From a virus: DNA of 32,571 nucleotides. A program made the position numbers and the translations under genes. Location of the stretch: IMG/VR virus record IMGVR_UViG_3300035670_005521, positions 1 to 32,571 of that record; one strand, 5' to 3'. A model generated the notes under the pieces. That model was not told the origin of the DNA. It did not search any database and saw nothing but the letters and a program-made list of their open reading frames with translations. Positions 4,244-12,518 of this stretch are shown piece after piece; position 1 is the stretch's first letter; the number at the start of each line of letters is the position of its first letter.

Positions 4244-5965
4244 ATGGCAAGCACATGGTCTTCCCTAAAATTTGAACTGATCGGCACAGGTGAGCAAGCT
4301 GGCACCTGGGGCACAACAACTAACGCAAACCTTGGTGATGCTATTGAGCAGGCCATTGGTGGCAAAGCGGACATCACGATGTCCAGCACGTCTGAGACGC
4401 TTACGCTCACAGATACCACGGCTCTTCAAGATGCCCGAGCACTTTATCTAAATTTGTCCGGCACGCCTGGTGGAGCTGCGACCTTAAACGTCCCAGCCGT
4501 TGAGAAGGCATACATCGTAAGAAACGGCACGAACCAACAGGTCACGGTCAAGGTGACTGGCCAGACTGGTGTTGTTGTACCCACCGGCAAGGTTATGGCG
4601 CTCTATGACAACGGAACAGACGTTGTTGACACCATTACTCACCTGACGTCACTGACTCTTGGATCTGCGCTGCCGGTTGCTTCGGGTGGTACAGGCGTAA
4701 CAACATCTACTGGCTCTGGTTCGGTGGTGTTGTCCACTTCGCCAACGCTTACAACGCCCAATCTTGGAACACCGTCTGCCGCCACGCTGACAAATGCAAC
4801 AGGGCTTCCACTTTCGACTGGTGTAACAGGTCAACTTCCACTAGCAAATGGTGGTACAGGCGCGAACCTGGTTGACCCTAACGCTGACAGAATTCTGTTT
4901 TGGGATGATTCCGCTGGCGCGGTAACGTTCTTGTCTACCGGCACTGGCGTTTCAATCTCTGGCACTACTTTATCCGCCACAGGAACAGGTGGAACGGTAA
5001 CTTCTGTCAGCGGAACCGGAACGGTCCAGGGCCTCACTCTTTCTGGCACTGTCACGTCCTCAGGCAGCTTGACCCTTGGTGGATCTCTTTCAGCGGTTAA
5101 CCTCGCTTCGCAAGTGACGGGTACGCTCCCAATTGGAAATGGGGGAACGGGTGCTGCGCTTGTTGATCCAAACGCTGACCGAATTTTGTTCTGGGATGAC
5201 TCCGCCGGGGCCACCGCTTTTCTCGCCACGGGCACTGGACTTTCCATTAGTGGGACGACTATTTCTGCCACGAACAACGGTACTGTGACATCAATCACCG
5301 CAGGGACGTATTTAACGGGCGGCACTATTACAACGTCCGGGACCATTGCGGTAGATGCAACTACAACAAACACAGCATCCAAAGTTGTAGCGCGAGACGC
5401 TTCTGGTAACTTTTCTGCTGGGACGATTACCGCATCTCTTTCAGGAAATGCTTCTACAGCAACATCAGCCGCAACATGGACAACCTCCCGCACTCTAACA
5501 ATTGGCGCTACTGGTAAGTCTGTAAATGGCTCAGGAAACGTAACCTGGACCTTGGCAGAAGTTACCGGAACCACTGGAACGCCTCAGTTTGGCTCACTAG
5601 GCGTCGGTACCGCGGCTTCAGGAACGACTGGTGAAATCCGGGCAACAAACAACGTTACGGCCTACTACTCTGACGAGCGGCTCAAGACCAAGCTTGGCAA
5701 CATTGAAAACGCTCTTGACAAGATCTGCAACCTGTCTGGCTTCTATTACGAAGCAAACGAAGTTGCCCAGGAGCTGGGATACAAGGTCGAGCGCGAGGTC
5801 GGTGTATCCGCTCAAGAAGTCCAGCGTGTGTTGCCAGAGGTGGTGGTACCGGCCCCAATCAGCGATAAATACCTAACGGTCCGCTATGAAAAGCTGGTCC
5901 CGCTGCTCATCGAAGCAATTAAGGAATTGAAAGCTGAGTTGGAGGCTCTGAAAAATGGCGCTTAA
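4244..5965 (+). CDS. Tail fibre with C-terminal peptidase S74 chaperone domain
   Basis: A 573-residue fibre. The N-terminal part begins MASTWSSLKFELIGTGEQAGTWG, a common phage fibre opening (GTGEQAGTWGxTTN). The middle is a Gly/Thr/Ser-rich beta shaft containing GNGGTG motifs and a duplicated block of about 50 residues. The C-terminus is an intramolecular chaperone of the peptidase S74 family: SDERLK with Ser476, then ALDKICNLSGFYYE, GVSAQEVQRVLPE and YEKLVPLLIEAIKELK. In known S74 proteins this domain trimerises the fibre and then cuts itself off at a site just before the SDxRLK region, so the mature fibre would end near residue 475. AGGAG precedes the ATG. It overlaps the next gene by 11 bases. 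Confidence 0.88.
   Translation: MASTWSSLKFELIGTGEQAGTWGTTTNANLGDAIEQAIGGKADITMSSTSETLTLTDTTALQDARALYLNLSGTPGGAATLNVPAVEKAYIVRNGTNQQVTVKVTGQTGVVVPTGKVMALYDNGTDVVDTITHLTSLTLGSALPVASGGTGVTTSTGSGSVVLSTSPTLTTPNLGTPSAATLTNATGLPLSTGVTGQLPLANGGTGANLVDPNADRILFWDDSAGAVTFLSTGTGVSISGTTLSATGTGGTVTSVSGTGTVQGLTLSGTVTSSGSLTLGGSLSAVNLASQVTGTLPIGNGGTGAALVDPNADRILFWDDSAGATAFLATGTGLSISGTTISATNNGTVTSITAGTYLTGGTITTSGTIAVDATTTNTASKVVARDASGNFSAGTITASLSGNASTATSAATWTTSRTLTIGATGKSVNGSGNVTWTLAEVTGTTGTPQFGSLGVGTAASGTTGEIRATNNVTAYYSDERLKTKLGNIENALDKICNLSGFYYEANEVAQELGYKVEREVGVSAQEVQRVLPEVVVPAPISDKYLTVRYEKLVPLLIEAIKELKAELEALKNGA
4835..5275 (+). repeat. Duplicated 50-residue shaft block in the tail fibre
   Basis: Residues 198-247 (4835-4984) and 295-344 (5126-5275) of the fibre are near copies: both run LPxxNGGTGAxLVDPNADR, ILFWDDSAGA, a TGTGxSISGTT strand and an SAT end. 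They are 97 residues apart. The DNA has diverged at third positions, so the duplication is not very recent. Confidence 0.8.
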
Positions 5966-7232
5966 TGCATCCGGTCCAATTAGCCTGGCAGGTTCCACTA
6001 CAGGTCAGTCAATCGCAATTGAGTTGGGGCTTTCTGCTACAGGAACAATCTCTCTAAACGACGCAGCCGTAAGGGGGCTTGCAGGGGTCGCGTCTGGCGC
6101 GATTGTGATGCCAACAGACTTCTGGGGTAAGTCGAACCTTCCGGTTGGTCAGCTTTATGTAAGTGGATTAAATTATTATGGTTGCTTGGGAACTGGAGTA
6201 AATACTGGGGCAAGTGGCCCACTGCAGGTTGGAGCCCTTAGTGATTGGTATGTATTTAATGTTTCCTCTAACGGTAACTTTTCTTTTGGGGTAAGGGGAA
6301 ATGGTACGCTATGGGCTACTGGATCAAGTGGATCTTACACCGGCCAGCTTGGATTAAATGATATTAATATTAGCAGGTCGTCTCCAACTCAAATTGGCGC
6401 GCTTACAAATTGGTTAAATGTTGCCCCTACTAATACTGGCGGGCTTGCCGTAAAAAATAACGGGACATTGTGGGCTTGGGGCCGAAACCAGTTTGGAGAG
6501 CTGGGTCAAAGTGATACAGTTGCAAGATCTTCTCCTGTACAAATTGGAGCTTTAACAAACTGGGAAAAAGTGGCCGGCTTAAGTATTTCATGTTTAGCTA
6601 AAAAAACAGATGGCACACTGTGGGCATGGGGATGGGGAAGTGCGGGACTTATTGGAGATAATACTACTATAAACAGATCATCTCCTGTCCAGGTTGGAGC
6701 TTTAACAACCTGGAAAAACATAGGAAGAGCCCCAGAGACAGCGTTTGCCACCAATACATCTAATCAAATTTTTGTATTTGGGTCGGGCAATACTGGGGTC
6801 ACTGGACTAAATTCTACAATCAATAAATCGTCTCCAACTCAAATTGGCGCTCTAACAAATTGGTTAAGGCCGGGCAATTCTGGGCAAACGAATAGACAAT
6901 CATTCATTAAAACAGACGGCACTTTGTGGTGTGTTGGTTATCAAAGATACGGTCAATTTGGAATTAACCTTAAAGTATATCCATCGTATCTTGACAAAAG
7001 ATCCTCTCCGGTTCAAGCTTTGGGAACAGATTGGGTGTATTCTTGTCTAGGTGATCAAGCACAACACGCCCTTAAGTCTACTGGAACATGGTGGGCTGTT
7101 GGAAGCAATAGTGCTTTTGGAGCTGCTAACGCGTTTTCTGGATACAGAAGTTCTTGGATTCAGGTTGGGTCTGCTACAAACTGGAGGCATTTAAGCTTTG
7201 GAGAAAGAAGCGTAGCCTGTATAAATGATTAA
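5955..7232 (+). CDS. RCC1-repeat beta-propeller tail protein (probable receptor-binding protein)
   Basis: A 425-residue protein. Residues 1-60 (MALNASGPISLAGSTTGQSI ... VMPTDFWGKS) are an N-terminus seen on many phage tail and fibre proteins and probably dock it on the tail. Residues 65-425 are RCC1-like repeats of about 50 residues with G(T/Q)LWAxGxNxxGQLG and SSPxQ(I/V)GALTNW cores, about six to seven blades, giving a predicted seven-bladed beta-propeller. GGAGG precedes the ATG, which lies inside the end of the S74 fibre gene. Hand counts show 63% GC at 6061-6120 but 37% at 6241-6300, so the propeller part seems to have a different origin from the anchor. A binding role is inferred; no catalytic motif is visible. 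Confidence 0.75.
   Translation: MALNASGPISLAGSTTGQSIAIELGLSATGTISLNDAAVRGLAGVASGAIVMPTDFWGKSNLPVGQLYVSGLNYYGCLGTGVNTGASGPLQVGALSDWYVFNVSSNGNFSFGVRGNGTLWATGSSGSYTGQLGLNDINISRSSPTQIGALTNWLNVAPTNTGGLAVKNNGTLWAWGRNQFGELGQSDTVARSSPVQIGALTNWEKVAGLSISCLAKKTDGTLWAWGWGSAGLIGDNTTINRSSPVQVGALTTWKNIGRAPETAFATNTSNQIFVFGSGNTGVTGLNSTINKSSPTQIGALTNWLRPGNSGQTNRQSFIKTDGTLWCVGYQRYGQFGINLKVYPSYLDKRSSPVQALGTDWVYSCLGDQAQHALKSTGTWWAVGSNSAFGAANAFSGYRSSWIQVGSATNWRHLSFGERSVACIND
6378..6867 (+). repeat. Near-identical 40-bp direct repeats in the RCC1 gene
   Basis: 6378-6417 and 6828-6867 both encode SSPTQIGALTNWL and differ at only a few bases. Diverged copies lie near 6528 and 6678 (SSPVQIGALTNW and SSPVQVGALTTW). 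The close DNA match between distant blades suggests recent duplication or gene conversion within the propeller. Confidence 0.75.
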
Positions 7233-7268
7233 AATTTTAATTCTACTGTTCTGAGTATTTAAAATTTA

Positions 7269-9122
7269 ATGAAAAAACTTTATTTTTTATCTGGTCTTCC
7301 AAGGTCTGGTTCAACTGTTTTGGCCGCCTTGTTAAATCAACACCCAGAAATTTATGCTACATCTACTTCTGGGCTCACCGATCTTTTGAGTGGCGTGTTG
7401 AACGCGTGGTCCTCCTCTGAATCAATTAAATCATCGATAAAAAATGAAGAAGAAAAACATTCTGAAATAAAAGAGATAGTGAAAAATTTGTGTTTTTCTA
7501 AATACAAGTTTGTAGAAAAAAACATAATTATTGACAAATCTAGAACATGGGTAATTCCGATATTTATTGATGCTATGAAAGATGTCTTAGATCATGAGGT
7601 AAAAATTATAGCAACAGTAAGAAATGTCGAGGATTGCGTTTCGTCCATGGTAAGGATTGCAAAGCCAGAAAATGTAGATGAATTTTTAAAAAAATCTGAA
7701 TTAATTAAGCACGTAAAAGCATCTTATCAATTCTTAGCTGCAGGTCATGAGCACGCAAAAGATCTTATTCATTACGTTGACTATGATGATCTTTTAAGCA
7801 ATCCCAAATTAGAATTACAAAAAATACAAAATTTTTTGGGTATCTCATATTTTGAATATGATATAAATAATATTGACGGCTCACTTGTTAAAGAAAATGA
7901 CGAAGAAGTATGGGGGATTAAAAACCTTCATACAATTGGTAGTTGTTTGAAAAAGCAACATTTCCAGTCCAGCAAGGAAGTTTTGGGTTCGCGTTATGAA
8001 CAGTTTGTGCAACCTAGATTTTGGCTTGGAGAAGATAAAAGCCGAATTAAAGACCATCCATTAGATATTATGATCAAAGAAGGTCTAAATGGTAATTTTT
8101 TGCAATCTGAAGAAATTGGAAAAGATTTTTTAAAAAAAGATCCTTCAAACTGCAGGGCAGCATTTAATGTTGGTTGGTACATATTAAGAAATGGAAATTT
8201 ATTAGATGGGCACAAACATCTTTTTCGTGGGCGAGAAGAGGGGGTGTTTGGTAACGATTTTCCGCGGGCAAGGGCCCCAATGTGGGATGGCGTATCAAGA
8301 GGAACAGTGTTGCTTAAGTTGGAGGGCGGCCTTGGCGACGAAATACACGGCGCTGGAATGGTTCGTTATATAGCAAAAAAAGGGTGTGAAGTTATTTTAG
8401 GCTGCTCCGAAGAGTTGTTTTTAATTTTTAAAAATATTTTAAATGTAAAATCAATTGTTCGGCATGATGCAGCCTTTGGGATAATGCATGACTTTTGGGT
8501 CCCGGCAATGTCAGCGGTGATACCACTCGGGCTTCAATATGAAAATGTAGATGGATCACCGTATATTTCAAGGCCAAAGGTTATTCGTGGTAAGCGCACT
8601 CGGATTGGGTTGCGCTGGCAGGGTAATCCTAAGTTTGAGCACGAGCAACATAGGCTTTTTCCATCCGACCTTTTTTTTGAGGCTGTAAGAGGTTTTGATG
8701 CAGACTTTGTGTCTCTCCAGAGAGACGAGGGTGCGCAGCACAGACCAGACTGGGTATCTGAAACGTCTTTGGACACATGGACTGAAACACAGTACGCTAT
8801 TGCATCGTGCGACTTGGTGATAACATCGTGCACATCAGTTGCCCATCTGTCTGCGGCTATGGGCGTTGAGACGTGGATCGTAATACCGGTGCTGCCATAC
8901 TACTTGTGGGCCAAGCCAGGCTCCAAGACCGAGTGGTACGACAGCGTTACGTTGTTTAGGCAAGAGAAGTACGGGGACTGGTCCGCCCCTTTTGCGGCCA
9001 TCAATGATCAACTTAAAGCAAGACTAGGAGCAAAAAATGGCGATAGTAAAAACAGGATTCTGGGTTCAGGTGGTGAATGGCCAGGTTCTTCAGTGCTGGG
9101 ACTACAGGCCTCCACAGGCTAA
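7269..9122 (+). CDS. Sulfotransferase-TPR-GT9 glycosyltransferase fusion
   Basis: A 617-residue fusion. Residues 1-260 are a PAPS-dependent sulfotransferase: the 5' phosphosulfate loop is GLPRSGSTVLAALL (residues 9-22) and the 3' phosphate motif is TVRNVEDCVSSMVR (from about residue 116). Residues 275-335 look like TPR helices (NFLQSEEIGKDFLKKDPSNC, AAFNVGWYILRNGN). Residues 346-590 resemble GT9 heptosyltransferase-like enzymes: LKLEGGLGDEIHGAGMVRY, GLRWQGNPKFEHEQHR, FVSLQRDEGAQ and DLVITSCTSVAHLSAAMG. The protein could add a sulfate and a sugar to the same glycan. There is no clear ribosome site, and the upstream 36 bases are AT-rich. Hand counts give 22% GC at 7441-7500 and 57% at 8881-8940, so the two halves probably have different sources. 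The last 32 codons overlap the next gene. Confidence 0.82.
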   Translation: MKKLYFLSGLPRSGSTVLAALLNQHPEIYATSTSGLTDLLSGVLNAWSSSESIKSSIKNEEEKHSEIKEIVKNLCFSKYKFVEKNIIIDKSRTWVIPIFIDAMKDVLDHEVKIIATVRNVEDCVSSMVRIAKPENVDEFLKKSELIKHVKASYQFLAAGHEHAKDLIHYVDYDDLLSNPKLELQKIQNFLGISYFEYDINNIDGSLVKENDEEVWGIKNLHTIGSCLKKQHFQSSKEVLGSRYEQFVQPRFWLGEDKSRIKDHPLDIMIKEGLNGNFLQSEEIGKDFLKKDPSNCRAAFNVGWYILRNGNLLDGHKHLFRGREEGVFGNDFPRARAPMWDGVSRGTVLLKLEGGLGDEIHGAGMVRYIAKKGCEVILGCSEELFLIFKNILNVKSIVRHDAAFGIMHDFWVPAMSAVIPLGLQYENVDGSPYISRPKVIRGKRTRIGLRWQGNPKFEHEQHRLFPSDLFFEAVRGFDADFVSLQRDEGAQHRPDWVSETSLDTWTETQYAIASCDLVITSCTSVAHLSAAMGVETWIVIPVLPYYLWAKPGSKTEWYDSVTLFRQEKYGDWSAPFAAINDQLKARLGAKNGDSKNRILGSGGEWPGSSVLGLQASTG

Positions 9123-9477
9123 AATAGACGAAGAGGGCGGATGGCAAGAGGCAGTAGAGGTAACGCCGGACGTTCAACCTCATCGTGAAATGATTACTAA
9201 TCATTATTTTGATACAACAAAAACTCCAGTTGAAATAGTTTGGAACAAAAGAGAAATTCTTGTTGATGAAAGAAAAGAGGGAATAAGGGGTGAGTTAAAG
9301 AGAGCTTTTGAAAAAGTTGTTCAAAATGAGCTTTCAAAAGAGTTAGATGATTTTTTAGACACGCATTACGACGCAAATGTTGTGGAAGCTGCGCGTCAGT
9401 CTTATTTAAACAAATTGCAGCAAATAAATAATCTTTCTACTCACGATGAATTTGAGGCTTTTGTAAACAGCCTATGA
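9037..9477 (+). CDS. Unrecognised small phage protein, possibly tail-assembly chaperone-like
   Basis: A 146-residue protein with AGGAG upstream of its ATG. Residues 1-75 look beta-rich with several Trp residues (GFWVQVVNGQVLQCWDYRPP, ITNHYFD, PVEIVWNKREI). Residues 78-146 are charged helices (ERKEGIRGELKRAFEKVVQN, LSTHDEFEAFVNSL). The two-part architecture is like small phage tail-assembly or fibre-assembly proteins, but no family can be named with assurance. Its ATG lies inside the end of the sulfotransferase-GT9 gene and its stop overlaps the GT25 start by four bases (ATGA). Coding sequence here is AT-rich (35% GC at 9241-9300). Confidence 0.6.
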   Translation: MAIVKTGFWVQVVNGQVLQCWDYRPPQAKIDEEGGWQEAVEVTPDVQPHREMITNHYFDTTKTPVEIVWNKREILVDERKEGIRGELKRAFEKVVQNELSKELDDFLDTHYDANVVEAARQSYLNKLQQINNLSTHDEFEAFVNSL

Positions 9478-10166
9478 AATCTCTTTTTTATTCTTATAAT
9501 TTTGATGTAACCAAAGCCCACATCATAAGAATAAAAGGCGTGCAAAAGTCAGAAGAAAAAGCTTTTGTGTGTGCAAATTCTTGTGATGACGTAGGTATGC
9601 CTTGGGAGTATTGGGATGCTTACAACGGGATCGAGAAAGAGATAAAACCCCCAGATCATCACAATGATTTGATGAAAATCATAAAGGTAACCGATCATTA
9701 CCTAACAAGAGGTGAAGTCGCGTGTGCCCTTTCCCACATTTCATTGTGGGCAAAATGCGCTGCAGATGATAAGCCAATGGTTATATTGGAGCACGATTCA
9801 ATAATGACCAGGGCGTACAAAAAGCATTTAATTTTTAATTCTATTTGTTATCTTGGCGGGTTTGAGCAGGCGCAAAAGGGCTGGGAGGCGCTCCCAACTC
9901 CCCCTCACGCATCGGAGGGGCCAAACTATCATTTTATTTGTCGTGCACATGCTTATGCAATAGACCCAGCAGTTGCAAAAAACATGTTGGCGCATGTCAT
10001 CAAACACGGCATCTGTGCCCCGCTGGATATAATGTTGCGGGCAGATATTTTTCCAATTCATCAAAATGGTATTTTTGCTTACGACAGACAAAGCGAAGAC
10101 ACCACAATTTTAAACCGGCCTAAGCATGGCAGGACAACGCAGCGAAACGACAAACTGGAGATCTAA
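9474..10166 (+). CDS. Glycosyltransferase family 25 (LPS-type)
   Basis: A 230-residue protein with the GT25 core. Residues 79-112 carry RGEVACALSHISLW and then MVILEHDSIM, which align with the family's GE(I/V)xCxLSH and LILEDD motifs. The second residue of the usual EDD acidic motif is His here (EHD). The C-terminal half has AYAIDPAVAKNMLAH and APLDIMLRADIFPI, also typical. GT25 enzymes add galactose or glucose to LPS core sugars or to hydroxylysine. The acceptor here is unknown. The start overlaps the preceding stop as ATGA, and the stop overlaps the next ATG as TAATG, so translation is coupled on both sides. Part of the AT-rich stretch. Confidence 0.8.
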   Translation: MKSLFYSYNFDVTKAHIIRIKGVQKSEEKAFVCANSCDDVGMPWEYWDAYNGIEKEIKPPDHHNDLMKIIKVTDHYLTRGEVACALSHISLWAKCAADDKPMVILEHDSIMTRAYKKHLIFNSICYLGGFEQAQKGWEALPTPPHASEGPNYHFICRAHAYAIDPAVAKNMLAHVIKHGICAPLDIMLRADIFPIHQNGIFAYDRQSEDTTILNRPKHGRTTQRNDKLEI

Positions 10167-10906
10167 TGGGCCAAATACCCAAGACGGTTCACCTAAGTTG
10201 GAAAACAAAAGACCTTTTGCAAAGCCAATCGCCAATTGTTTTAAACGGCGTCCGAAGGCTTGCTGACCTAAACCCTGACTGGGAAATCCAGATCAGCACC
10301 GATGAAGAAGTAGATCAGTATCTCAAAGAGAAGCTTGAGCCTCAGGACTATAGGCTCATTGCTGACATCGGGGTAGTGCCACAGACTGACATCTGGCGCC
10401 TCATCAAGATGTACTTTGAGGGTGGTCTGTACGTAGATGTGGATCGGTTCTGGAATATTCGCTTGGACGAGATTCTGGAAGAGGACACCAAGCAGATCAT
10501 CCCGACCAATAGGGACCATGACTTCTCCCATGATTTTATGCTGTCTGCCCCCGGAAGCCCGGTGTTTGCAGCTGCCATAGATCTTTACTTCAAGCGCCGC
10601 AAGGCTGGCCACAACGCCGTCTTTTTCCTTGGCCCACAGACGTACATGCACGCAATCACTTATGCCGTGTTTGGCGAAATGATTGACTGCAATCCCGGCC
10701 AAAAGATGTTTGAAAAAATGCGGATGTATCTAGACAGCTATGAGTACATGCGCACCTTCCGAGAGGACGGCCCGTATGAGACGGTGTGTTACCACCATGA
10801 TCCGGATGAGTTTAAGTCAGACGACACCGGGACGCAGGACTGGGAAACTTTGAAGCGGAAGTTCTATGCCAATAACGGCATCAAACATTGGACGGGAGAA
10901 TGGTAA
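10166..10906 (+). CDS. Glycosyltransferase with DXD motif (GT32 / OCH1-like sugar transferase)
   Basis: A 246-residue protein. It opens with IPKTVHLSW (residues 4-12), the family N-terminal strand, and has DIWRLIKMYFEGGLYVDVD at residues 75-93, where Asp91-Val-Asp93 is the metal- and nucleotide-sugar-binding DXD. Further family-like features are FMLSAPGSPVFAAAI and GPQTYMHAITY. The group (Gly_transf_sug) includes OCH1-type mannosyltransferases and bacterial capsule and LPS enzymes. No signal peptide or membrane helix is seen, so it is a cytoplasmic enzyme. GGAG precedes the ATG, which overlaps the GT25 stop. Base composition is back to the level of the structural genes. Donor and acceptor cannot be read from the sequence. 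Confidence 0.83.
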   Translation: MGQIPKTVHLSWKTKDLLQSQSPIVLNGVRRLADLNPDWEIQISTDEEVDQYLKEKLEPQDYRLIADIGVVPQTDIWRLIKMYFEGGLYVDVDRFWNIRLDEILEEDTKQIIPTNRDHDFSHDFMLSAPGSPVFAAAIDLYFKRRKAGHNAVFFLGPQTYMHAITYAVFGEMIDCNPGQKMFEKMRMYLDSYEYMRTFREDGPYETVCYHHDPDEFKSDDTGTQDWETLKRKFYANNGIKHWTGEW

Positions 10907-11709
10907 TGACAAAGATTCTGGTGATGGGCCTTCCTGGCTCCGGTAAGACATTCTTTTCAAAAGCGCTGGTTGACTTCTTCAATGAGTGGCGCGTAGAAGG
11001 TCAGGGCGTTTCGGTCGAGTGGTTTAATGCTGACGATGTCCGCAAGCGCTTCGATGACTGGGACTTCAGCAAAGAGGGCCGGATTCGGCAGTCCAAGCGC
11101 ATGGCTGACTTGGCGGAGTCATCCAGCTGCGACTATGTGATCGCTGACTTTGTGGCCCCAATCCCTGAGATGCGGAACAACTTCAAGGCCGACTGGACGG
11201 TGTGGATTGACACTATCGACCAGGGCCGGTTTGAGGACACTAACAAGATGTTTGTGCCGCCCCAGGTCTACGACTTTAGGATCACTGAGCAGAACGCAGA
11301 GAAGTGGGCAGAGTTTGTTGGGATGCATATCCTTGAGAACCGCCGTCGCCCTGTGTTTGACTGGAAGAAGGAAACGGTTCAGATGCTTGGCCGCTGGCAG
11401 CCATGGCACAAGGGTCATCGTGCATTGTTTGAGAGGGCGATTGCCAAGACTGGGCAGGTTGTCATCCAGATCCGCGACTGCCAGGGGTGGAACGGGTCAA
11501 ATCCTTTTGCAGCAGAACAGGTCAAAAACTTCATCCGCCGGGATCTAGATCCTCTGTTCCAGGGGCAGTACGAGATCCAGCTGGTGCCCAATGTGACAAA
11601 TATCACCTATGGCCGTGACGTGGGATATAAGATCGAACAAGAGGTGTTTGACGAGCAAATTCACTCGATTTCGGCCACAAAGATCCGCAAGGAAATGGGG
11701 ATTGAGTGA
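10906..11709 (+). CDS. APS-kinase-like domain fused to HxGH nucleotidyltransferase
   Basis: Start is set at ATG 10906, which shares its A with the previous stop (TAATG) and has GGGAG upstream. A TTG at 10888 is open in frame but less likely. The 267-residue product has a P-loop kinase half: GLPGSGKT at residues 8-15, FNADDVRKRFDDWDFSKEGR, RQSKRMADLAE and VIADFVAPIPEMR. These follow the adenylylsulfate kinase pattern (DGDNVR, GFSxEDR, FISPxR). The second half has a nucleotidyltransferase site, GRWQPWHKGH with HKGH at 168-171, and a closing ISATKIR at 255, close to NadM-type adenylyltransferases. It is too short to be ATP sulfurylase. It may make PAPS for the sulfotransferase nearby and activate a phosphorylated substrate with its other half. 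Confidence 0.75.
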   Translation: MTKILVMGLPGSGKTFFSKALVDFFNEWRVEGQGVSVEWFNADDVRKRFDDWDFSKEGRIRQSKRMADLAESSSCDYVIADFVAPIPEMRNNFKADWTVWIDTIDQGRFEDTNKMFVPPQVYDFRITEQNAEKWAEFVGMHILENRRRPVFDWKKETVQMLGRWQPWHKGHRALFERAIAKTGQVVIQIRDCQGWNGSNPFAAEQVKNFIRRDLDPLFQGQYEIQLVPNVTNITYGRDVGYKIEQEVFDEQIHSISATKIRKEMGIE

Positions 11710-12518
11710 ACATCCTGCTCACAGGAAGCGCAGGGTTCATTGGGAAGAACTTCTTCCATAAGCTCAAAGACGAGCACAACATTGTTGCGTTTGAGTGGGG
11801 GGATTCCTGGCCCGGAGTAGAAGGGATGGACATGGTGATCCATCTCGGGGCCATCTCCTCGACGGCCTATAAAGACGTCAACCAGATCATGCTGCAGAAC
11901 TATGAGTTCACGGTGGATCTGATGGAGGAGTGCTCAGCCAAGAATGTCCCGCTGCAGATTGCTTCGTCGGCCTCGATCTATGGCCCAGAGAATACAACCT
12001 TCCGGGAGGATGATTCCCCGGACCCAAGGACTCCGTATGCGTGGAGCAAGTACCTAGCAGAGCGGTATTGGCAGACCCACAAGCTCAAGAACAGGGTGCA
12101 GTTTTTTCGGTACTTCAATATCTACGGCGAGTACGAAGAGCATAAGGGCGACCAGGCGTCTCCGTTTACCAAGTTTGCCAAGGCACTAAACAGCGGGGAG
12201 AAGGTCAAACTCTTTGAGGGAAGCGACCAGATCTACCGTGATTTCTTGGCTGTGGAGTTTGTTCTCATGCAGCACAAGCAATTCTGGAACATTGATGAGA
12301 GCGGGATCTGGAACTGTGGAAGTGGAAGCCCGAGATCGTTCCTTGAGGTGGCAAAATCTCTCGGGGCAGGCGATAATCAGATCGAGTGGATGCCTATTCC
12401 AAAAGAGCTGCTGGCTGGTTATCAGCGGTTCACAAAAGCTGACAACACAAAGTTCTTGAGGACGCTAGGTCATGATCGACCCGATAACCGCACTAGCGAC
12501 CGCGACGGCAGTCTTTAA
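11706..12518 (+). CDS. hldD: ADP-L-glycero-D-manno-heptose 6-epimerase-like SDR enzyme, C-terminus truncated
   Basis: Starts at GTG 11706, overlapping the previous stop as GTGA. The 270-residue product has the NAD loop TGSAGFIG (residues 6-13), VIHLGAISST, the YxxxK pair Tyr111/Lys115 (PYAWSKYLAE), and then RYFNIYG, EHKGDQAS with Lys147, KLFEGSDQIYRDF, IPKELLAGYQRFTKADNTK and LGHDRP. These match HldD closely, including the second catalytic Lys in the HKG motif. HldD converts ADP-D-glycero- to ADP-L-glycero-heptose for the LPS inner core. It is about 40 residues shorter than the E. coli enzyme (about 310): a loop after the NAD strand is missing, and the usual last helix is replaced by the DNRTSDRDGSL tail, which is read from the beginning of the next gene in another frame. 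Activity is therefore uncertain. Confidence 0.85.
   Translation: MNILLTGSAGFIGKNFFHKLKDEHNIVAFEWGDSWPGVEGMDMVIHLGAISSTAYKDVNQIMLQNYEFTVDLMEECSAKNVPLQIASSASIYGPENTTFREDDSPDPRTPYAWSKYLAERYWQTHKLKNRVQFFRYFNIYGEYEEHKGDQASPFTKFAKALNSGEKVKLFEGSDQIYRDFLAVEFVLMQHKQFWNIDESGIWNCGSGSPRSFLEVAKSLGAGDNQIEWMPIPKELLAGYQRFTKADNTKFLRTLGHDRPDNRTSDRDGSL

Follow-up and report, generated by a model that had tools for sequence, protein, structure and literature searches.

Modification of phage virions or surfaces is known in kind. Mycobacteriophage glycosyltransferases act on virion proteins, and glycans are found on the capsid and tail tube (Freeman et al. 2023, cited in PMC12619734); the T4-like cyanophages P-SSM2, S-SSM7, and S-SM2 have lipopolysaccharide (LPS) gene clusters (PMC3037559); and TibC and other bacterial autotransporter heptosyltransferases move heptose from ADP-heptose onto a repetitive surface adhesin (PMC4358343). 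Here, we describe a run of genes of a water-borne phage, at positions 7269–12518 of the IMG/VR virus record IMGVR_UViG_3300035670_005521 (32,571 bases, hereafter called the window; all genes considered are on the plus strand), which probably encodes an enzyme set that attaches sugars and sulfate. We give about an even chance to the reading that the run is an exchangeable modification cassette behind an RCC1-repeat tail fiber, with that fiber as the main target, glycosylated and sulfated. Our literature searches for a phage cassette with a sulfotransferase or a synthase of 3'-phosphoadenosine 5'-phosphosulfate (PAPS) gave nothing closer than these three papers, and no report of sulfated, glycosylated phage tail fibers was found; within that literature the combination of genes, the link to RCC1, and the KIN_NT family described below are new.

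TibC is a precedent for how the GT9-like enzyme of the run would work, a likeness in role with no claim of family membership: TibC has an N-terminal beta-barrel and an iron finger, whereas the phage enzyme has a sulfotransferase and a TPR-like stretch in front, and its acceptor would be the RCC1 fiber. For mycobacteriophage virion glycosylation, PMC12619734 mentions neither sulfation nor ADP-heptose genes. The three cyanophages carry nucleotide-sugar epimerases related to the HldD-like protein of the window, but their LPS clusters are much larger than the cassette, and PMC3037559 mentions neither a sulfotransferase nor RCC1. The protein that we label KIN_NT (267 aa) is a fusion of a domain like the kinases of adenosine 5'-phosphosulfate (APS) with an adenylyltransferase domain. 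It resembles human PAPSS1/2 and CysNC/CysC in placing an N-terminal APS-kinase-like domain before a HIGH-type nucleotidyltransferase, and its model aligns with human PAPSS1 over both domains, with a large difference at the hinge. Unlike PAPS synthase (~600 aa), it has a nucleotidyltransferase of only ~120 aa, which resembles nicotinamide mononucleotide adenylyltransferase (NMNAT) and is without ATP-sulfurylase motifs; moreover, KIN and NT are separate genes in SAR11. The NT domain shares GRxQPxHxGH, the (N/D)P loop, and the S-x-T-x-x-R segment with NadM-type NMNATs, yet KIN_NT falls far under their curated cut-offs, has its own GRxVGY motif, and is fused to the APS-kinase-like domain.

The probable acceptor, an RCC1-repeat tail fiber, is encoded at 5955–7232 (Pfam RCC1, E-value 3.2e-24), directly ahead of the gene for a sulfotransferase (residues ~1–260) fused to a TPR/GT9-like glycosyltransferase (residues ~275–587) at 7269–9122. 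The GT9 half of the window protein has no match to Pfam PF01075, and its label comes from relatives: Glyco_transf_9 is matched by 3 of 17 (best 1.3e-4), behind TPR repeats, and by the bacterial relative L183 at 23.4 bits (cut-off 22).

This GT9-like gene accompanies RCC1 fibers almost perfectly. Among 51 non-redundant loci anchored on KIN_NT, both are present in 18, RCC1 only in one, GT9 only in none, and neither in 32 (p = 7e-13); RCC1 and the sulfotransferase are independent in the same loci (p = 0.35). All 42 non-redundant GT25 loci contain RCC1 and GT9, with the two genes no more than 120 bp apart in 34, and a scan anchored on RCC1 found GT9 in 18/31 loci, at no more than 120 bp in 13. Across the four virus sets first compared, which partly overlap, RCC1 accompanies GT9 in all 87 GT9 loci that span at least 9 kb. 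When loci were anchored instead on an unrelated neck gene as a control, three had both genes, none a single one, and 32 neither (p = 1.5e-4). In two cultured Synechococcus phages, BUCT-ZZ01 and S-SRM01, RCC1 is followed by GT9 after gaps of 39 and 37 bp. The link is not absolute: in the 15-kb stretch of the metagenomic podovirus ctDrO704 (L540), a distant GT9-like gene stands without RCC1.

The nearest structural relatives of the window, L410 and L411 (stabilization proteins 92% and 86% identical over the best segment), have neither the RCC1 fiber nor the cassette, and the cassette is missing in 54 of the 55 stabilization-anchored loci of at least 9 kb that carry other fibers; in sibling loci, cassette genes are interleaved with RCC1 fiber genes. 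Within the window, the guanine-plus-cytosine (GC) content breaks inside the fiber gene, from 0.541 in the phage-like N-terminal part (5955–6135) to 0.431 in the RCC1 part (6136–7232). The fiber N-terminus and the backbone are at 0.53–0.54. Along the run, GC is 0.33 for the sulfotransferase half and 0.46 for the GT9 half, then 0.40 and 0.42 for the two genes that follow, and then 0.50 and 0.53. Since the low-GC block begins at the RCC1 start and persists through GT25, the RCC1 tip, the sulfotransferase-GT9 gene, and GT25 appear to have been imported as one block. The initial annotation of this DNA, made by a model from the letters alone, had offered two targets, host LPS and the phage's own tail; the linkage of GT9 to RCC1 fibers, together with the GC break inside the fiber gene, favors the phage's own fiber as acceptor. 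By eye, the slot behind the fiber in L410 (4311–7443) holds an apparent 2-oxoglutarate-oxygenase-like gene, and the fiber there has collagen-like G-x-y repeats.

Six same-strand open reading frames (ORFs) form the tight run, with tail-fiber genes before and lysis genes after it according to the ORF list and Pfam. Behind the sulfotransferase-GT9 gene lie a 146-aa ORF without a known family (9037–9477), a GT25 glycosyltransferase (9474–10166; Glyco_transf_25, 2e-14; viral-contig relatives at 60–73% identity), a GT32-type glycosyltransferase with a DXD sugar-binding region (10166–10906; Gly_transf_sug, 9.5e-7, 29.9 bits against a cut-off of 23), KIN_NT (10906–11709), and an HldD-like ADP-heptose 6-epimerase (11706–12518). 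The first and second genes share 86 bp, an overlap also seen in siblings L263, L264, and L273, and all later junctions overlap by 1–4 bp. The 146-aa ORF is real, because related ORFs are found in 79 other loci; its position is also conserved in sibling cassettes. It had escaped the initial annotation, which named the other five genes with families and a location that our ORF and Pfam analysis confirms; its sulfotransferase and APS-kinase assignments are upheld by profile searches and the predicted kinase fold, and its GT9-like label, weak in the window protein itself, depends on relatives.

The order sulfotransferase-GT9, GT25, KIN_NT, GT32 with 4-bp overlaps is seen again in many other contigs (among them L265, L268, L272, L282, and L288), and a GT25-anchored scan likewise found many contigs with the order sulfotransferase-GT9, small ORF, GT25, KIN_NT, GT32 and 4-bp overlaps. 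Because the same arrangement recurs so often, the combination exceeds chance. As far as these comparisons go, the run is a set of three exchangeable sub-modules, namely (A) the RCC1 fiber and GT9-like enzyme, usually with GT25, (B) KIN_NT and the sulfotransferase, and (C) HldE2-HldE1-HldD, rather than one conserved unit.

The second sub-module joins a sulfotransferase to a possible source of its donor. The 7269–9122 protein matches Sulfotransfer_3 at 68.7 bits (1.2e-18), over the cut-off of 27 that 13/13 relatives also exceed; in these relatives the PAPS contacts, the 5'-phosphosulfate-binding loop PRSGST and the 3' R118-x7-S126, are invariant. The best solved relatives of the sulfotransferase profile are protein-tyrosine sulfotransferases (7e-9), followed closely by a polyketide-synthase sulfotransferase (7.5e-8); with the RCC1 linkage and GC data, this leans toward the fiber as acceptor without proving it. 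The sulfotransferase half (7269–8048) was likely swapped in by recent domain exchange, since it is lower in GC (33% vs 53% for the backbone) and diverges more from siblings than the GT9 half does (e.g., 50% vs 68% identity to L263).

KIN_NT belongs to an unstudied family that is common in aquatic viruses and SAR11. A scan of viral contigs with the window protein gave at least 597 confirmed relatives, the best 80 at 71–76% identity, and a second scan with a cultured relative as query gave 139, those retained reaching down to 37% identity to the query. The KIN_NT loci form 85 clusters at 95% identity, and 52 of these belong to the window's clade or to the GT25 set; the flanks of these 52 contain a sulfotransferase in 33, DUF2061 in 14, and either in 38. 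Many of the sulfotransferase genes share 4 bp with KIN_NT. In the neck-gene control, a sulfotransferase is present in 7/7 loci with KIN_NT and in 1/71 without, or in 2/2 and 1/33 once redundant contigs are removed (p = 0.005). DUF2061, a family of small membrane proteins, shares 4 bp with KIN_NT in L066; in an alphaproteobacterial genome (L326, 575–3127) it forms the end of a CysN-CysC-DUF2061 fusion with CysD adjacent, which points to a role of DUF2061 in sulfate activation or transport. Close to KIN_NT in L060 (6114–7433), a sulfotransferase-like domain is fused with an aspartyl/asparaginyl hydroxylase domain.

By sequence and predicted fold, the kinase half of KIN_NT (residues 1–145, 10906–11340) is clearly APS-kinase-like. 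The full-length protein matches PHROG family 10255, annotated as "kinase" (9e-49), and Pfam gives APS_kinase (3.5e-6, 27.6 bits against a cut-off of 21.1) plus CTP_transf_like. The top matches of the KIN domain to Protein Data Bank (PDB) profiles are all APS kinases (2.4e-15). In the predicted structure (predicted local distance difference test, pLDDT, 89.5), residues 1–147 fold like APS kinase (Z 18.6, against 14.9 for the next family), superposing at 2.1 A across 143 residues. The TIGR00455 equivalog cut-off for APS kinase is missed (25.3 bits vs 138.7). Among 225 KIN_NT sequences, the P-loop, D43, F54, F82, and P85 are (near-)invariant, as are R46, F54, R59, and P85, which align with APS contacts of APS kinase. 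Of the APS-contact residues of the APS-kinase family (Arg, Phe, Arg, Asn), the first three are conserved as R46, F54, and R59, and the Asn position is Gln in 215/225 sequences.

The NT half (11341–11709) is a short HIGH-type adenylyltransferase with the motifs GRxQPxHxGH ... GRxVGY ... SAT..R, of which the first two are (near-)invariant in the 172 sequences that cover this domain. Its best solved relatives in the PDB profile search are NMNATs (1e-10), no Sat (PF01747) is among its Pfam or PDB profile matches, and no sulfurylase is in the VIA list of structures similar to it. The curated NMNAT cut-offs are missed as well (30.3 bits vs 127 and 26.8 vs 181.2). Because the nearest solved relatives are NMNATs and none is an ATP sulfurylase, the substrate of adenylyl transfer cannot be read from the sequence. 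Two possible discriminators failed. Modeled alone (pLDDT 89.5), NT has Z 10–11 to PPAT and NMNAT, and its fold gives Foldseek template-modeling scores of ~0.5 to PPAT, NMNAT, and ATP sulfurylase alike; the segment YGRDVGY was dropped as a "GRDHAG-like" sulfurylase sign, its Asp being Gly in 21/172 sequences and its spacing different.

In several loci, a degenerate KIN-like domain, whose P-loop is not intact, is fused behind a ~180-aa domain of no known family. This gene (L005, 7037–7999; L027, 1512–2495; L029, 7016–7999; L033, 2299–3249; L063, 2–1018) lies directly upstream of KIN_NT, except in L063, and might possibly encode a pseudokinase partner.

Beyond viruses, a scan of bacterial genomes found KIN_NT relatives in SAR11, SAR116, SAR86, and others. 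Most SAR11 have KIN and NT as separate adjacent genes that, read by eye, lie among Rieske-type, enoyl-CoA-hydratase-like, and dehydrogenase-like genes. The samples comprised 60 family and 198 order genomes of related species, so the statistics are indications. Across both samples, CysNC occurs in nine distinct genomes, none of them with KIN_NT; in the order sample, KIN_NT is present in 0/7 genomes with CysNC and in 162/191 without (p = 4e-6), and no ATP sulfurylase was found in 18/18 SAR11 genomes tested. Sulfotransferases (E ≤ 1e-3) occur in 119/142 genomes with both domains, 4/20 with one, and 25/36 with none; we dropped this co-occurrence as proof, the clearest contrast (one domain vs two) being explainable by lineage.

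In the mechanism that we propose, the TPR/GT9-like enzyme, aided by GT25 and GT32, would place a sugar on the RCC1 fiber, and the fused sulfotransferase would add sulfate to that sugar or to the protein, with activated sulfate from KIN_NT. The adenylyl product of the C-terminal half of KIN_NT would most likely be APS, formed from ATP and sulfate; phosphorylation of its 3'-OH by the N-terminal APS-kinase-like domain would then yield PAPS. HldD would be all that is left of an ADP-heptose module, with ADP-D,D-heptose supplied by the host. We infer that the fiber is the acceptor, that the adenylyltransferase uses sulfate, and that the cassette is expressed late. The initial annotation had paired a PAPS supply with its user: the pairing of KIN_NT with the sulfotransferase is borne out in the window's clade, and the supply would have to come through an NMNAT-like partner domain. 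If the proposal is true, it assigns a testable function to a protein family that is very common yet unstudied (at least 597 viral relatives in one scan, and most SAR11 genomes sampled), suggests a PAPS route in organisms without known sulfate-activation genes, and predicts phage tail fibers that carry sulfate and glycans.

Several observations weigh against this reading. The NT domain matches no ATP sulfurylase at E ≤ 10 in the PDB profile search, NMNAT being best, and it has GRxQPxHxGH in place of the ATP-sulfurylase motif QxRNPxHxxH. No Sulfotransfer_3 was found in the whole cultured genomes of the distant KIN_NT phages Suzuki, DLP_6, AhaSv, and Bhz60, and just 2/35 non-redundant distant KIN_NT loci have a sulfotransferase. 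The neck-control associations depend on few independent loci, the window is without HldE, and GT25 families also act on LPS. In SAR11, whose species are not independent, the link to strong sulfotransferases fell from p = 0.0004 in the family sample to 73/142 vs 19/56 (p = 0.03) in the larger one.

PAPS synthesis by KIN_NT is only plausible, because its NT half is NMNAT-like and without the ATP-sulfurylase motif; for the window's clade, we place a PAPS synthase just below an even chance. A main rival comes close behind: KIN_NT may instead make another adenylylated or NAD-type compound, as in NAD salvage, or a phosphorylated nucleotide donor, likened to the nucleotide-phosphoramidate of Campylobacter capsule modification, with the sulfotransferase using host PAPS or another donor. 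The NMNAT-like sequence of NT fits this, as do the SAR11 copy in a betaine/one-carbon-type region and the Casjensviridae copies (L001, L004, ~5556–8729), which are near NADAR and MazG genes and have no sulfotransferase; yet it leaves aside the APS-kinase sequence and fold of the other half, the occurrence of sulfotransferase or DUF2061 beside KIN_NT in the window's clade, and the exclusion with CysNC in SAR11. More tentative is the broader proposal that KIN_NT is a compact PAPS synthase of a new type, with an NMNAT-like domain at the ATP-sulfurylase step, that supplies both SAR11 without CysDNC or Sat and many aquatic phages sulfating and glycosylating their own RCC1 fibers. The rival product of KIN_NT and the alternatives that follow are not mutually exclusive, as the former concerns a single enzyme and the latter the whole cassette.

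Late remodeling of host LPS or capsule by the glycosyltransferases, HldD, and sulfotransferase, which would prevent superinfection or keep progeny from re-adsorbing to debris, is an unlikely account. LPS enzymes exist in the GT25 and GT9 families, and HldE2-HldE1-HldD sets, which are seen in siblings, feed the LPS core in bacteria. Large LPS gene clusters are also described in cyanophages (PMC3037559), but remodeling gives no reason for the near-perfect linkage of GT9 to one fiber type, for the absence of the cassette behind nearly all other fibers, or for the interleaving of its genes with those of RCC1 fibers. That unrelated accessory genes merely gather in a variable slot behind tail fibers, without joint action, is improbable: the slot does vary (in L410 and L411 it is occupied by other genes or nearly empty), gene content and order differ among loci, and GC is unlike between the two halves of the run, but the 4-bp overlaps, recurrent order, sulfotransferase-GT9 protein fusion, and specific pairings speak against this.

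The heptose part of the modification cassette is reduced in the window. TIGR02197, the heptose epimerase model, is the best of all models for the 11706–12518 protein (196 bits, 8.3e-58), under its curated cut-off of 274.6, with Epimerase at 2.4e-24; the translation contains YAWSK (Y-x3-K) and EEHKGDQAS (HKG segment), placed by the E. coli HldD residues. Pfam and NCBIfam profile searches found no HldE kinase/adenylyltransferase gene within 7269–12518, and a peptide-pattern search found no close relatives of the window HldD in viral contigs. Siblings L034, L045, L046, and L073 carry a single run of KIN_NT, an HldE2-type adenylyltransferase, a cupin, an HldE1-type kinase, and HldD (in L034, TIGR02199 4.8e-52 for HldE2 and TIGR02198 2.1e-30 for HldE1), and variants of HldE1/HldE2/HldD occur in L246, L260, L264, L273, and L293. 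The window HldD would thus be a remnant or reduced form of this module, and the heptose theme, as originally suggested, holds for the lineage, but the window has only HldD in place of a complete ADP-heptose maker. A role of KIN_NT as a replacement for HldE is ruled out by their presence side by side in those four loci.

Some SAR11 chromosomes (L202, L218, L230) have KIN and NT 2–4 kb apart, and the gap in L218 and L230 is filled by one or two genes for repeat proteins of 700–760 aa. Genomes G022, G039, G045, G069, G072, and others have NT without KIN and mostly no sulfotransferases; NT may have another role in such lineages. In the window itself, another tail-fiber gene (4244–5965) lies upstream of the RCC1 fiber, and downstream of the run come a 166-aa ORF, a 167-aa ORF, and then a lysozyme.

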